NCBI RefSeq assembly: GCF_900114465.1
Contig: NZ_FOTD01000003.1
Span: 62,001 to 126,000 of the forward strand
From: Trichococcus palustris
GTDB taxonomy: Bacteria; Bacillota; Bacilli; Lactobacillales; Aerococcaceae
Direction: 5' to 3'
DNA: 64,000 nucleotides
Both the position numbers and the translations under genes were made by a program. The notes beneath the pieces were generated by a model. That model was not told the origin of the DNA, did no database searches, and saw only the letters and a list, made by a program, of their open reading frames with translations. Positions 2,796-46,668 of this stretch are shown piece after piece (position 1 is the stretch's first letter; each line of letters starts with the position of its first letter).

Positions 2796-2821
2796 GGGGC
2801 TGGGACAAAAGTCCGAGCCCC
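2796..2821 (+). terminator. Terminator-like hairpin after prkC
   Basis: GGGGCTGGGAC, loop AAAA, GTCCGAGCCCC, then CTTTC. It lies 23 bp after the prkC stop and forms the leading end of the composite intergenic repeat. Confidence 0.7.
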
Positions 2822-3092
2822 TTTCGCATTTCCTAACAATTAATCGTAAACGTGTTCTGAATTGCAGACACCACTCCCGTTTCGAAACGGGCTTTCGTCC
2901 ACAAAAGAGGTGAACGAAAAACCAGTTTCTCCAACGTCCGGGTGTCTAAACACAATTCATCACACTCTGTTTAAACGTGTTCCAAAAAGCAGACCTGAAG
3001 TCACTTCACGCATAATGCTCAGGCGGTCTGCGACCATCTGAGCTTATTGGCTCCAGTGATTCGGGTCTAAACGCTTTCTGTCACACACACTC
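2796..3092 (+). repeat. Composite intergenic repeat, copy A
   Basis: This fills most of the gap between prkC and rsgA. It starts with the GGGAC-N4-GTCC hairpin. Block 1 (2851-2961) runs from CGTGTTCTGAATTGCAGACACC-type sequence to GGTGTCTAAACACAATTCATC. Block 2 (2973-3080) runs from AAACGTGTTCCAAAAAGCAGACC-type sequence to GGGTCTAAACGCTTTCTG. Block 1 holds a small hairpin (CCCGTTT/AAACGGG). Block 2 holds a long perfect one (GCTCAG..GGTC/GACC..CTGAGC, 3017-3043). Most of it is nearly identical to 46301-46668, and block 2 also to the reverse strand of 29284-29685. No credible gene is present. Confidence 0.85.
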
Positions 3093-3251
3093 TATTTTTA
3101 TGATTGCGCCGAGGACACCTGTGGCTTTAATCGCGTTTGGATCGGAATTTTGACTCTCCTTCATTTTTTCGGTTAGATAGTGTAAAATAGTGGATAAGAC
3201 AATGCTCAAAAAAAGATTAGATGAAAAGAAAAAATAGAAGGGGTTGTTGAT

Positions 3252-28265: not shown

Positions 28266-28343
28266 GAGCAGAAAACTGCTCGATAATACAATATTCCGCT
28301 GTGTAAAATTATGCATGAATATTGGTTGGAAGGGGAAAAAAAC
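28266..28343 (+). ncRNA. Probable L19 leader (autoregulatory mRNA structure)
   Basis: Between the rplS promoter and start codon lie a tight hairpin GAGCAG/CTGCTC (28266-28281) and a perfect 8-bp pair CAATATTC/GAATATTG (28289-28324) ending just before the GGAAGGGG ribosome site. Firmicute rplS mRNAs are known to carry an L19 leader. The assignment rests on position and the two stems, not on a covariance search. Confidence 0.55.
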
Positions 28344-28697
28344 ATGAGTCAATTACCATTGATCGAAGAAATCACAAAAGGACAATTACGTAGTGATATT
28401 CCTGCATTCCGTCCAGGAGATACTGTCCGCGTTCACGCTCGCGTAGTCGAAGGAACAAGAGAACGTATCCAATTATTCGAAGGCGTTGTTATCAAACGTC
28501 GCGGATTCGGAATCAGCGAAACTTATACAGTACGTAAAATTTCTAACGGTGTTGGTGTGGAACGTACATTCCCATTACACACTCCTCGTGTAGCTCAAAT
28601 CGAAGTTGTTCGTTTCGGTAAAGTGCGTCGTGCAAAACTTTACTACTTACGCGCATTACACGGAAAAGCTGCTCGTATCACAGAAAGACGTCGTTAA
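28344..28697 (+). CDS. rplS: 50S ribosomal protein L19
   Basis: 117-residue protein at the 30S-50S interface. [38 protein letters not shown] and the C-terminal [18 protein letters not shown] are conserved. ATG 28344 has GGAAGGGG 8 bases upstream; the longer frame from 28311 runs through the leader stem and is not used. Confidence 0.96.
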
Positions 28698-28712
28698 TAT
28701 TTCATATTACAA

Positions 28713-28750
28713 AAAAAGGATCCCGGGCGAAAGTCCGCGGTCCTTTTTTT
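28713..28750 (+). terminator. Intrinsic terminator after rplS
   Basis: AAAGGA-T-C-C-CGG, loop, CCG-C-GG-TCCTTT with T7 tail; imperfect stem but strong U tract. Confidence 0.8.
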
Positions 28751-28793
28751 GCGCAGTCATCAAGAAACGGCGGCGCTCTCCAGGTTGCTGCTG

Positions 28794-28802
28794 TGCTATA
28801 CT
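28794..28802 (+). promoter_or_regulatory. Predicted extended -10 promoter
   Basis: TGTGC-TATACT with TG just upstream of the -10 box; no clear -35. Lies about 30 bp upstream of the gene at 28831. Confidence 0.4.
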
Positions 28803-28830
28803 ATATATAAAAAAGGAAAGAGTGATCTGC

Positions 28831-29265
28831 TTGACGATACTGGAAGTGCTTGATAAAGTTTTTCAAGAAAAAGGCATGCCTTTGAAAAGTCATCCTATTC
28901 AAAATAATCAATTTCTATACCAAGGGAATTATACGATCGGTCCTGAGCGGACGCTGCCGTTCGGAATCGTCATCGCCAAGGATGCGGAAGAAAGTGACTT
29001 TCAGATCAGCTTCAGGAAACTGGCTTATTTAAATGATTACAACGACAAAGCGAAAGCCTTGGAGCTGATTAATGAACTGAATCAGACGAAGACATTCTAT
29101 TATACCCTCTGCTTAGCCGGAGACGGCGAATTTTTCATTCAAATGCTGGGCAGAACGACGCTCGACGTCAAACCGTTATACGAAATGCTGGTCATCGGAT
29201 CCAATATAGCAAAAGTTGTAATCGCTGAACTTGAGAAACAAATCCCTTCCATTGCTAAAAAATAA
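28831..29265 (+). CDS. Hypothetical protein, 144 residues
   Basis: Not recognised with confidence. Starts at TTG (28831) with AAAAGGAAAG about 10 bases upstream; the frame is open further back into rplS but those starts are unlikely. Soluble, no signal or membrane helix. Alternating short strands and helices (FGIVIAKDAEESDFQISFRKLAYL, ALELINELNQTKTFYYTLCLAGDGEFFIQM) resemble the YbjN/type III chaperone-like fold, where small cytoplasmic proteins bind partners, but this is a weak guess. Monocistronic, between rplS and a convergent HAD gene. Confidence 0.75.
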   Translation: MTILEVLDKVFQEKGMPLKSHPIQNNQFLYQGNYTIGPERTLPFGIVIAKDAEESDFQISFRKLAYLNDYNDKAKALELINELNQTKTFYYTLCLAGDGEFFIQMLGRTTLDVKPLYEMLVIGSNIAKVVIAELEKQIPSIAKK

Positions 29266-29283: not shown

Positions 29284-29685
29284 TGAGAGTGAGACAAAAA
29301 GCGTTTAAACAGAGTGCGATGAATCCCGTTTAGAAATCGAGCACTAAGAGGACTAACACAAAGCGGACGCTTTCTGTCCGCGTGTGATAGTCAACTTAGG
29401 CACTCAAACGTCACAGTGCGACGTTTGAGGTCTTTCGCAATTTTTATACCAAGACAAATGATGCAAATGTTACTTGGGATTCAAAACACATTTAGACCCG
29501 AATCATTGGAGCGAATAAGCGGAGGATGGTCACGGACCATCTGAGCATTACTCGCGAAGTGACGTCGGGTCTGCTTTTTGGAACACGTTTACGATTAATT
29601 GTCAGGAAATAAGAAACCACTATGTTTATTTGAATATATACTTGACTAAACATAGGAAAGAGGCTAGGACTTTTGTCCCAACCTC
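29284..29685 (-). repeat. Composite intergenic repeat, copy B (reversed)
   Basis: Read on the minus strand it starts with the terminator hairpin (29660-29685), 9 bp after the stop of the HAD gene. Block 2 follows (ACGTGTTCCAAAAAGCAGACC-type start, GACCATC hairpin, GATTCGGGTCTAAA end). Then comes an interior absent from copies A and C with two strong hairpins: CTCAAACGTC/GACGTTTGAG (29403-29429) and GCGGAC/GTCCGC (29370s-29380s). It ends with GTTTAAACGCTTTTTGTCTCAC. It fills the whole gap between two convergent genes. Confidence 0.8.
29660..29685. terminator. Terminator hairpin, yitU-like 3' end
   Basis: GAGGCTAGGAC, TTTT, GTCCCAACCTC. On the minus strand GAGGTTGGGAC-AAAA-GTCCTAGCCTC followed by TTTCC. 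Probably terminates transcription from both sides. Confidence 0.7.
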
Positions 29686-29693
29686 CATTTCTT

Positions 29694-30503
29694 TTATAGG
29701 CTAAAATAGTTTTCAAGGTATTCGGCCAATCCATCTTCATGGTTGGATTTCTTGGTCACATCATTCGCGATTTTTTTCAAGGGCTCGATGCCATTTTGCA
29801 TGACGACGCCGTGACCGGCAAACTGGATCATTTCCATATCGTTGTCTTCATCGCCGAAAGCAAGGATGTCTTCCTGCTTCACGCCGTAGTAATCGGCAAC
29901 CACTTCGACGCCTAAAGCCTTTTGCACACCGGCGGAGACAATCTCCAGGCAGGGCATCAGGCCGCCCCATGTCCGAATCTCGATGATATTGCCATAGCGA
30001 TCCAAAATTTTATTGCGGATTGTTTTCAGATTCATTTCATCAGAAAATACGGTGAGTGCCGTCGGATTTTCTGATAAAGACTTTTTGGAAATGATTTCGG
30101 TGGAAAGTGTATTTTTCGGAAAGAATTCATTGGTCGGTAAGTTTGCCGTTGAAGCAAAAAGTTTTTCTTTCCCTTCTACGCAAATGAAATCAATGCCAAA
30201 ATCTTCACGTTGTTCAATCAAATCCATCGCCAAGTCTTTTCCGACTGTCTTATGATAATATTTGCTCCAGTTGCTGTCGGTGGGCTTGTGACAGAGCGCG
30301 CCGTTAAAGTTTACGATTGGGGTGGTCATGCCAAGTGAAAAGTAAAATTCCTTGCTGTTTCTATAGGGACGTCCGGTAGCAATCATGACGAGATGATTCT
30401 CCTTTTGTAGTTTCGTCAAAACGTTTTTGGTGCGGTTAGTCAACAGAGAGTGGTTGTTTAATGTCGTGCCATCTAAATCTAAAGCGATTAATTTTTGTTT
30501 CAT
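29694..30503 (-). CDS. Cof-type HAD phosphatase (YitU-like)
   Basis: 269 residues. HAD motifs DLDGTTLN, ATGRPY, GDEDNDMEMIQFAGHGVVMQNG. The minus-strand ATG at 30503 follows GGAGG at 5-nt spacing; the frame extends 13 codons further but the family begins at MKQKLIALDLDGT. In Bacillus subtilis yitU, yitV and yitW lie together; here the yitV-like and yitW-like genes follow divergently, so orthology to YitU (a riboflavin-pathway phosphatase) is plausible but unproven. Confidence 0.88.
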   Translation of the reverse strand: MKQKLIALDLDGTTLNNHSLLTNRTKNVLTKLQKENHLVMIATGRPYRNSKEFYFSLGMTTPIVNFNGALCHKPTDSNWSKYYHKTVGKDLAMDLIEQREDFGIDFICVEGKEKLFASTANLPTNEFFPKNTLSTEIISKKSLSENPTALTVFSDEMNLKTIRNKILDRYGNIIEIRTWGGLMPCLEIVSAGVQKALGVEVVADYYGVKQEDILAFGDEDNDMEMIQFAGHGVVMQNGIEPLKKIANDVTKKSNHEDGLAEYLENYFSL

Positions 30504-30530
30504 AGGTGCCTCCGTTATTGTGTAAATTGC

Positions 30531-30560
30531 TAGTGTATCCATTTTTTAAATGGTACACTA
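30531..30560. promoter_or_regulatory. Palindromic site in divergent intergenic region
   Basis: TAGTGTATCCATTT and AAATGGTACACTA form a near-perfect inverted repeat (one unpaired base) between the divergent HAD and hydrolase genes. TAGTGTA...TACACTA half-sites look like a repressor operator. No cognate regulator lies nearby. Confidence 0.5.
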
Positions 30561-45465: not shown

Positions 45466-46287
45466 ATGTTAGAAACATTCAGTCATTTTAGTCCGGTTTT
45501 ACAGGCGCTGATTGCAGGCATCTTTACTTGGAGCTGTACCGTCGTCGGGGCATCATTTGTATTCTTTTTTAAGCAGGTGAACCGCAAAGTGTTAGATATC
45601 ATGAGTGGCTTTGCAGCAGGCGTCATGATTGCCGCGTCATTCTGGTCGTTGCTCGCGCCTTCCATTGCGCATGCCGAAGAAAGCGGCTATGGGAATTTAG
45701 CGTGGGTTCCCGCTACCGTAGGCTTTTTGTTGGGTGGGGCTTTCTTGAGGCTGACGGACAGAATCATTCCCCATTTGCATTTGGGCGAGCCGTTGGAAAA
45801 CAGAGAAGGGCCTCAGACGAAAGCCTCGAAAAGCCTATTGCTTTTCTTGGCAATCACGATTCATAATATTCCGGAAGGATTAGCCGTGGGGGTTGGATTC
45901 GGCGCGGTCGCTGCCGGCATATCGACACAAAATACGTTGATGAGCGCCATCGGCTTAGCTTTGGGGATCGGGATCCAAAACATTCCGGAAGGTTCGGCTT
46001 TATCCATGCCGATTCGGGCAGACGGGAAAAGCAGATGGAAAGCCTTCAACTATGGGCAAATGTCTGCTTTGGTTGAACCGGTTGCCGCTGTGTTGGGTGC
46101 CGCAGCGGTCCTATCCATGAGTGCTTTGTTGCCCTATGCATTATCGTTCGCAGCGGGCGCCATGATTTTCGTAGTGGTTGAAGAACTGATCCCTGAGTCG
46201 CAGACAAACGGAAACAGCGATATTGCGACGATGGGTTTGATGGTCGGGTTTGCGGTAATGATGATTTTGGATGTAGCTTTAGGATAA
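45466..46287 (+). CDS. ZIP-family divalent metal transporter
   Basis: 273 residues, about eight membrane helices. The metal-binding helices carry [14 protein letters not shown] and [12 protein letters not shown]. GufA/ZupT subfamily, importing Zn, Mn or Fe. AAGGGGG precedes ATG. 52 bp after dinB with no terminator, so likely co-transcribed from the metal-regulated promoter. A cre-like TGAAAACATTTTCT (45433-45446, one mismatch) lies in the gap. Confidence 0.9.
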
Positions 46288-46300
46288 TGATCAACCGCTA

Positions 46301-46330
46301 AGGAGGCTGGGACAAAGGTCCTAGCCTCCT
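46301..46330 (+). terminator. Terminator after ZIP transporter gene
   Basis: AGGAGGCT-G-GGAC, loop, GTCC-T-AGCCTCCT; leading end of repeat copy C. Confidence 0.75.
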
Positions 46331-46668
46331 TAGCATTTCCTAACAATAAATCGTAAACGTGTTCTGAATTGCAGACACCACTCCCGTTTTGTCATGTGTC
46401 TTGCGATTTCAATCGCTTAGAGACATGATACACTTGGGCGCTTGCGACCACAGTGCTTCCTTTCAGGGTCGTCCACAAAAGAGGTGAACGAAAAGCCAGT
46501 TTCTCCAACGTCCGGGTGTCTAAACACAATTCATCGCACTCTGTTTAAACGTGTTCCAAAAAGCAGACCTGAAGTCATTTCACGAATAATGCTCAGACGG
46601 TCTGCGACCATCCTCCGCTTATTCGCTCCAGTGATTCGGGTCTAAACGCTTTTTGCCTCACTCTCTTT
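46301..46668 (+). repeat. Composite intergenic repeat, copy C
   Basis: Starts with terminator hairpin AGGAGGCTGGGAC-AAAG-GTCCTAGCCTCCT-like (46301-46330), 14 bp after the ZIP stop. Blocks 1 and 2 match copy A with only scattered changes. Between them copy C has about 75 bp more: the small CCCGTTT/AAACGGG hairpin of A is replaced by a larger stem-loop (TCATGTGTCT...AGAGACATGA with inner GCGATT/AATCGC). Ends GGGTCTAAACGCTTTTTGCC-type. No credible gene. Confidence 0.85.

Follow-up and report, generated by a model that had tools for sequence, protein, structure and literature searches.

Intergenic elements with IS1182-type ends lie directly behind genes in Trichococcus and relatives and are probably MITE-like cassettes moved into terminators

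Introduction

REP and BIME repeats, with their RAYT partners, are intergenic hairpin mosaics at the 3′ ends of genes, as is the element described here, and the foot of a REP palindrome carries a GTAG-type tetranucleotide. The STAR motifs of Staphylococcus aureus are short and GC-rich. Among insertion sequences (ISs), IS1272 of S. aureus reportedly takes the place of inverted repeats 21-85 bp long without target duplication; of the three new insertions described in that report, one was within a gene and the other two were downstream of genes, at 15 and 66 bp (Wan et al. 2017, PMC5678879). A survey describes IS1182 as over-represented between convergent genes (PMC9208149), and a preference for convergent gene ends is also reported for the BOX, RUP and SPRITE repeats (Croucher et al. 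2011, PMC3049150). In addition, the STAR array at gapR is described as beginning with the start signature GTGGGACAGAAATGAT in 33 of 52 S. aureus strains (Purves et al. 2012, PMC3532100).

Here we examine an element present in three copies (A, B and C) in 64,000 nucleotides of Trichococcus palustris DNA, hereafter the window. No paper on this element, or on a miniature IS1182 element in these genera, was recognised in searches of the open-licence literature.

Results

The initial annotation of the window reported three intergenic copies sharing near-identical sequence, and these are real. Three blocks are common to copies A and C (144 nt, 97% identity; 85 nt, 93%; 58 nt, 86%), and a 110-nt block with 89% identity is common to B and C; the best E value between A and C is 4.8e-81, a likeness far above chance. 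The places given for the copies stand, with their exact ends corrected to those of Table 1 (approximate for A and C). Copy A starts 22 bp past the stop codon of a PASTA-domain kinase gene (719-2773) and copy C 15 bp past that of a ZIP transporter gene (45466-46287), and copy B is flanked by a 219-aa open reading frame (28606-29265, plus strand) and a HAD hydrolase gene (29694-30542, minus strand). As had been claimed, the hairpin end (GGCTGGGACAAAAGTCC-type) is directed toward a nearby stop codon in all three copies, but the other end of copy B also faces a stop codon, about 20 bp away. The element carries no visible open reading frame, transposase or target duplication, again in agreement with the annotation; an IS with the same ends is present elsewhere in the genome.

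No Rfam family matched anywhere in the window at the gathering threshold, and at E<=1 nothing covered the element at the four loci searched (L001, L032, L036 and L037). A scan for consensus terminators found none in copies A and C and one inside copy B. One of the four loci searched against Rfam carries a sub-threshold match to the ribosomal protein L19 leader (window 28288-28325, L032:889-926; 34.8 bits, gathering score 36). By comparison with loci L180-L191, the HAD hydrolase gene beside copy B is inverted relative to its neighbours: in the sister species compared, it shares one strand with the 219-aa gene and with a gene that by eye is esterase-like, whereas in the window it points the other way and copy B occupies the new convergent junction.

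Table 1. Positions of the three element copies and their parts in the window
Feature	Position	Strand	Remarks
Copy A	2796..3093	+	Left hairpin and hairpin units U2, U1; rsgA follows
Copy A, left end	2796..2821	+	IS1182-type terminal repeat folded back as hairpin (GGGGCTGGGACAAAAGTCCGAGCCCC)
Copy A, hairpin unit U2	2847..2968	+	TAAACGTGTTC ... TCACACTCT
Copy A, hairpin unit U1	2972..3093	+	U1 end is the right end of the element
Copy B	29285..29685	-	Between two convergent genes
Copy B, left hairpin end	29660..29685	-	GAGGTTGGGACAAAAGTCCTAGCCTC
Copy C	46303..46665	+	Left hairpin, U2 with extra hairpin, U1
Copy C, left hairpin end	46303..46328	+	-20.9 kcal/mol, z -5.0
Copy C, unit U2	46354..46542	+	
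Copy C, extra hairpin	46389..46468	+	About 80 nt, replacing the apex of U2
Copy C, unit U1	46546..46664	+	-40.3 kcal/mol, z -5.6; 3′ end is the right end of the element, TTTTTGCCTCACTCTC

The element is bounded by inverted ends, GAGnsTGGGACAAAA on the left and approximately its complement, TTTTGTCnCACTCTC, on the right. Its left end is a perfect or near-perfect hairpin, typically GAGGCTGGGACAAAAGTCCTAGCCTC, which a loose pattern matched in 28 of the 43 elements scored in the window's own genome. Between the ends lie one to four hairpin units, with the maximum of four unit starts at locus L037 (C12:233110-233668). On its 5′ side a unit carries TAAACGTGTTC, an 8-nt strand (P1), an A and a second strand (P2), followed by a variable interior; the 3′ side reads P2′, TAAAC, P1′ and TCnCACTCT, and the A stands opposite TAAAC. 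The element terminates on the right with the 3′ end of its last unit; for U1 this is commonly TTTTTGTCTCACTCTC, approximately an inverted version of the left end. Unit interiors vary among copies, like exchangeable cassettes. By eye, the element does not fit the attC boxes of integrons.

Strands P1 and P1′ pair despite differing sequences among unit types (CAAAAAGC/GCTTTTTG, TGAATTGC/GCAATTCA, TGAAAGTC/GACTTTCA, TGAATCCC/GGGATTCA, TAAAACTC/GAGTTTTA and others). Over 35 distinct stem combinations, 82.5% of positions are paired, compared with 63.8% when partners are shuffled (sd 2.4; highest value 71.1% in 2000 shuffles). With one combination per 5′ arm (21 combinations) the values are 75.6% and 60.0%, and 0 of 2000 shuffles are as high; these shuffles do not give a strict probability because the set holds related sequences. 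The set began as 82 candidate units, some of which are mis-paired start and end motifs, and filtering left 60 rows (35 distinct stem pairs). Units were picked by their end motifs, not by their pairing, and poorly paired ones were kept. U1 and U2 also fold far better than shuffled sequences, with z scores of -5.6 and -4.0 as RNA and -3.9 and -2.9 as DNA.

Longer hairpin arrays with several unit types are found at L037, L039, L027, L029 and L016, and L027 contains a divergent unit class that has ends CGTATCCTA / TAGTTGAACTC in place of CGCACTCT / AAACGTGTTC. The 80-nt extra hairpin of copy C resembles the 3′ hairpin of a separate intergenic repeat of roughly 270-300 nt, four copies of which are present among the fetched loci (L041:1884-2153; L042:2038-2307, minus strand; L043:1874-2145; L044:1927-2109). 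These are 86-93% alike and have no Rfam match. In L041 the repeat follows a sub-threshold T-box match (E 6.8e-17; 83 bits against a gathering score of 93), and it overlaps the beginning of an open frame resembling, by eye, isoleucyl-tRNA synthetase.

Many further copies are present in the window's own genome (G000; 2.93 Mb in 52 contigs). Copy C as a query gave 69 matches, and additional copies were collected by pattern searches for unit starts and unit ends, followed by clustering. The genome contains at least 41 elements (43 scored, minus two duplicates at contig ends), four of which (L082, L093, L095 and L096) are short pattern matches alone; because the search with copy C scored 40 of 88 candidates, copies may have been missed. 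Several contigs (C5/C10, C16/C27, C36 and C13) end in or near an element copy. Thus, the assembly is probably interrupted at repeats, and the genome likely holds more copies than were counted.

These copies lie just behind stop codons, in either orientation. Among the 41 elements, the left (hairpin) end alone adjoins a stop codon in 8, the right end alone in 17 and both ends in 11, and one flank is unknown in 5. Restricting the count to the 23 elements with the hairpin and two known flanks gives 7 left, 8 right and 8 both. In co-directional contexts, the stop codon is nearer than the start codon in 24 of 25 cases, at a median distance of 13 bp compared with 222 bp. The 34 elements of G023, which belongs to another genus of the same family and in which 30 elements are 171-174 bp long, include 8 with the left end and 8 with the right end toward a stop codon, 13 between convergent genes and 5 with an unknown flank. 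None of the 34 lies between divergent genes, which is weak evidence because divergent gaps make up only 433 of 8467 bp of intergenic DNA in the window (gaps of 30 bp or more). Genes were called with our own open-reading-frame scripts, using codon usage for the orientation tallies and length alone for the IS-to-stop distances given below. The initial annotation had held that the element always extends away from the adjoining gene in a single orientation, and had proposed a genome-wide tabulation as a check. That tabulation yields both orientations (8 versus 17 in G000, 8 versus 8 in G023), and the claim fails.

The element is not confined to the three copies first noticed, or to this genome. 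Unit U1 was found in 13 of 60 genomes (the window's own included), comprising 8 of 13 in the genus, 3 of 23 in other genera of the family (including one weak match, E 7.6e-4) and 2 of 24 elsewhere in the order. Carriers include other genera plus one other family, and the U1 pattern also matches Trichococcus sp. K1Tr, Desemzia incerta and Jeotgalibaca caeni. A search of plasmid and phage collections with copy C gave no match.

The ends of the element are those of an IS family. The window's own genome contains a 1845-bp IS (L239:2470-4314) with the ends GAGGCTGGGACAAAA / GAGGCTGGGACATAA (..CATAA), the first of which is identical to the left end of three element copies. The transposase of this IS, whose frame is interrupted, matches the IS1182 family model NF033551 of NCBIfam (270.8 bits, cut-off 270) and the Pfam domains DUF772 and DDE_Tnp_1, and a phage record annotated as IS1272 encodes a transposase 52% identical to it. 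Directly beside this IS copy lies an IS200/IS605-type pair (L239:543-2231), consisting of a Y1 transposase and an open reading frame that by eye is TnpB-like. With one mismatch allowed, the end pattern occurs 57 times in forward and 65 times in reverse orientation in five genomes, compared with 3 and 5 occurrences of the reversed-pattern controls.

The ends of IS1182 copies in relatives follow this design: GAGGCTGGGACAAAA / GAGGCTGGGACATAA in G003, GGGGCTGGGAAAAAA in G040, GAGCTTGGGACATAAG in G059, GGGGCTGTGACATAAG in G037 and AGAGGCTGACCCAAAAGTCTCT in G056. The IS1182 end of G050, GTGTCTGGGAAAAAACTAACTCCTAGAC, holds a fold-back resembling the left hairpin of the element. Annotated IS1182 copies on plasmids of Kurthia gibsonii and Cytobacillus have GAGGCTGGGACAAAA / GAGGCTGGGACATAA, and those of Terribacillus and Ligilactobacillus salivarius have GAGAGCGGGACA and GAGGATGGGAAAAAA, respectively. 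No ends were found for other IS1182-like matches (e.g. in G015, G027, G034 and the second copy type of G000 and G006) or for the IS1182 copies of Lactiplantibacillus and Mammaliicoccus, and Staphylococcus epidermidis gave only an unrelated pair.

The element ends vary in parallel with the IS1182 ends. Elements of G023 mostly have the form GGGGC(T/C)GGGAAAAAA ... TTTTTTCCCACTCTC, the start of which resembles the IS1182 end of G040. Those of G009 have GAGGCTGGGACTAAA on the left and GAGAGCGGGACAGAA on the right, and the latter resembles the Terribacillus IS1182 end. Apart from the 3′ ends of the units, which resemble the right terminal repeat, nothing in the IS accounts for the internal hairpin units.

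The IS1182 copies also resemble the element in their location. Most of the 13 delimited copies lie directly behind a called stop codon, for example at 6, 7, 7, 11, 17 and 23 bp; the exceptions are L301, which has no called stop codon within 1 kb, L294 (61 bp) and L239 (68 bp). Several sit in the middle of a palindrome, as in ggctgtacactaaat, IS, atttagtgtacagcc, or ggcattc, IS, gaatgcc. The mean contiguous complementary run between left and right flanks is 4.46 for these IS copies, compared with 2.74 when right flanks are swapped (5 of 5000 swaps as high; n=13). For the elements of G023 the values are 4.15 and 2.18 (0 of 5000; n=34), and for those of G000, where the test is not significant, 2.76 and 2.28 (310 of 5000; n=17). 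A positional complementarity score was significant in G023 (0 of 2000) and not in the IS1182 set (151 of 2000) or G000 (551 of 2000).

These flanks bear on the possibility that the element is a plain selfish repeat of unspecified origin, which inserts anywhere, has no choice of target and survives only at gene ends through purifying selection. The enrichment of BOX, RUP, SPRITE and ISs between convergent pneumococcal genes has been read as such tolerance (PMC3049150), and the flank result in G000 agrees with it. However, the inverted flanks in G023, the median distance of 13 bp from the stop codon and the precedent of IS1272 all point to targeting, and we regard an untargeted repeat as highly improbable.

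Orthologous sites in sister species carry stem-loops where the window carries the element, with similar spacing from the stop codon. At site A, a plain hairpin with a T run and no element motif is present in all 12 sister species. At site C, which was usable in the 7 of 12 sister genomes whose downstream gene matched in full, all seven have a plain stem-loop (about AAAAGGCCTTC...GAAGGCCTTTT), again with no element motif; these stem-loops were judged by eye, and a run-of-5-T criterion flagged L163 alone. Site B could not serve here owing to the inversion of the adjoining HAD gene in the window's genome. A third site, in genus g12, was judged by eye: of five sister species, three have unrelated plain terminators, one has an element that is eroded, and the last has a small inverted-repeat element of a different kind. 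Behind the CBS-domain gene of G063 (L347), the terminator site that a full element holds in G023 is occupied by a tiny inverted-repeat element, both ends of which are of the right type (GAGTGGGCAAAG ... TTTTTCTCACTC).

The proposal that the element is a structured 3′ UTR element or regulatory RNA of fixed orientation is unsupported, given the mixed orientations in two genomes. A broader form of this idea, which may coexist with mobility, is that the element is a regulatory RNA or bidirectional terminator module kept by selection for its action in the transcript of its neighbour. Such a role would suit the strong and stable folds (z scores of -5.0, -5.6 and -4.0), the covarying stems and the placement behind stop codons. 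It fits poorly with the lack of a fixed orientation, the patchy occurrence of U1, the sufficiency of plain stem-loops in sister species, the negative terminator scan in two of the three window copies and the lack of an Rfam match, and thus we consider selection for such a role very unlikely.

Co-occurrence counts bear on the identity of the mover, although relatedness confounds those for both transposase types. IS1182 is present in 6 of the 13 element-bearing genomes and in 15 of the 47 others, with no clear association, and was not found (E<=0.001) in the element-rich relatives G009, G023, G044 and G058. Y1 transposases (PF01797, searched in the 60 genomes) are present in 10 of 13 element-bearing genomes and in 20 of 47 others, a stronger co-occurrence that is confounded by kinship because 12 of 13 genomes of the genus have Y1. 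Under one alternative, a Y1 (IS200/RAYT) transposase recognising the folded single strand would move the element, which would then be REP/BIME-like. Beyond this count, its hairpin units have conserved unpaired feet and a conserved bulge, and the only Y1 match of G023 lies about 0.7 kb from a shortened element. However, Y1_Tnp was not matched in three genomes that bear the element (G009, G044 and G058), the inverted ends correspond to the terminal repeats of IS1182, and inverted flanks are common to the elements and the IS1182 copies. We therefore judge movement by a Y1 enzyme to be quite unlikely. The likelihoods that we assign to these alternatives are not mutually exclusive.

Discussion

We conclude, with a probability of roughly 0.7, that the element is a MITE-like non-autonomous element with IS1182-type ends, which is most likely moved into terminators by an IS1182-type transposase. 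As expected of a MITE, it shares its terminal inverted repeats with an autonomous-type IS and is short, non-coding, multicopy and dispersed. It also has an IS-like target preference for stem-loops behind genes, for which the flank test is significant in G023 and the IS set and not in G000. The copies, their anatomy and location, their mixed orientation and the match of their ends to IS1182 are directly supported, as are the inverted flanks in one genome and the IS set and the plain stem-loops at two orthologous sites. Of the readings offered in the initial annotation, that of a mobile cassette targeting terminators is the one favoured by the IS1182-like ends, the placement at stop codons, the inverted flanks and the stem-loops of sister species.

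In this mechanism, an IS1182-family transposase, present or past, would move the element in trans. At least one member of this family selects its target as a stem-loop and not by sequence; the intrinsic terminator directly behind a stop codon would therefore receive the insertion, or perhaps be replaced by it, and such a palindromic target would admit both orientations. With a left end that folds back and units that are all long hairpins, an insertion would bring new stem-loops in place of the terminator. The element may then take over termination; against this, the scan for consensus terminators was negative for copies A and C.

This reading assigns a likely mover to a previously unassigned intergenic repeat of Trichococcus and its relatives. 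It would also account for the position of the repeat downstream of genes, since an enzyme that selects stem-loops would often meet them between genes as intrinsic terminators. It is predicted that terminators are insertion hot spots that are exchanged wholesale between related species. An origin is also suggested for the start signature of the S. aureus STAR array.

We speculate further on a combinatorial hairpin system, in which stem-loop-replacing transposition swaps hairpins within hairpins as well as terminators for elements. Such swapping inside an earlier hairpin is suggested by the 80-nt insert that copy C carries at the apex of U2. A transposase that reads shape rather than sequence might then drive mosaic arrays and terminator turnover across Firmicutes, the STAR arrays of S. 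aureus included. This wider scheme is doubtful, and we offer it tentatively.

Comparison with known systems places the element closest to IS1272 and IS1182. The IS1182 copies examined have its terminal repeats and its place behind genes, and the likeness to IS1272 is judged by the reported stem-loop targets (PMC5678879) and by the 52% transposase identity. In contrast to these ISs, the element has no transposase, and its hairpin units are absent from the IS. SPRITE of Streptococcus pneumoniae is similarly described as a small, terminator-like repeat near gene 3′ ends, enriched between convergent genes and bordered by AAAA/TTTT, but as a single 18-bp duplex with a T-rich tract, for which that account gives no units and names no linked IS (PMC3049150). 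BOX, also of S. pneumoniae, is modular, 67-637 bp long and forms paired structure upon transcription; however, it is reported to cause target duplications and varies in length by the number of boxB copies, whereas the element varies by whole hairpin units (PMC3049150). STAR forms intergenic arrays in S. aureus, and its signature is close to the GAGnsTGGGACAAAA end of the element, but the arrays are described as 1-6 STAR motifs with 40-44 bp spacers, not long hairpins, in an account that does not name IS1182 (PMC3532100). Finally, the element differs from REP/BIME in its units of about 120 nt and in its IS1182-type terminal repeats.
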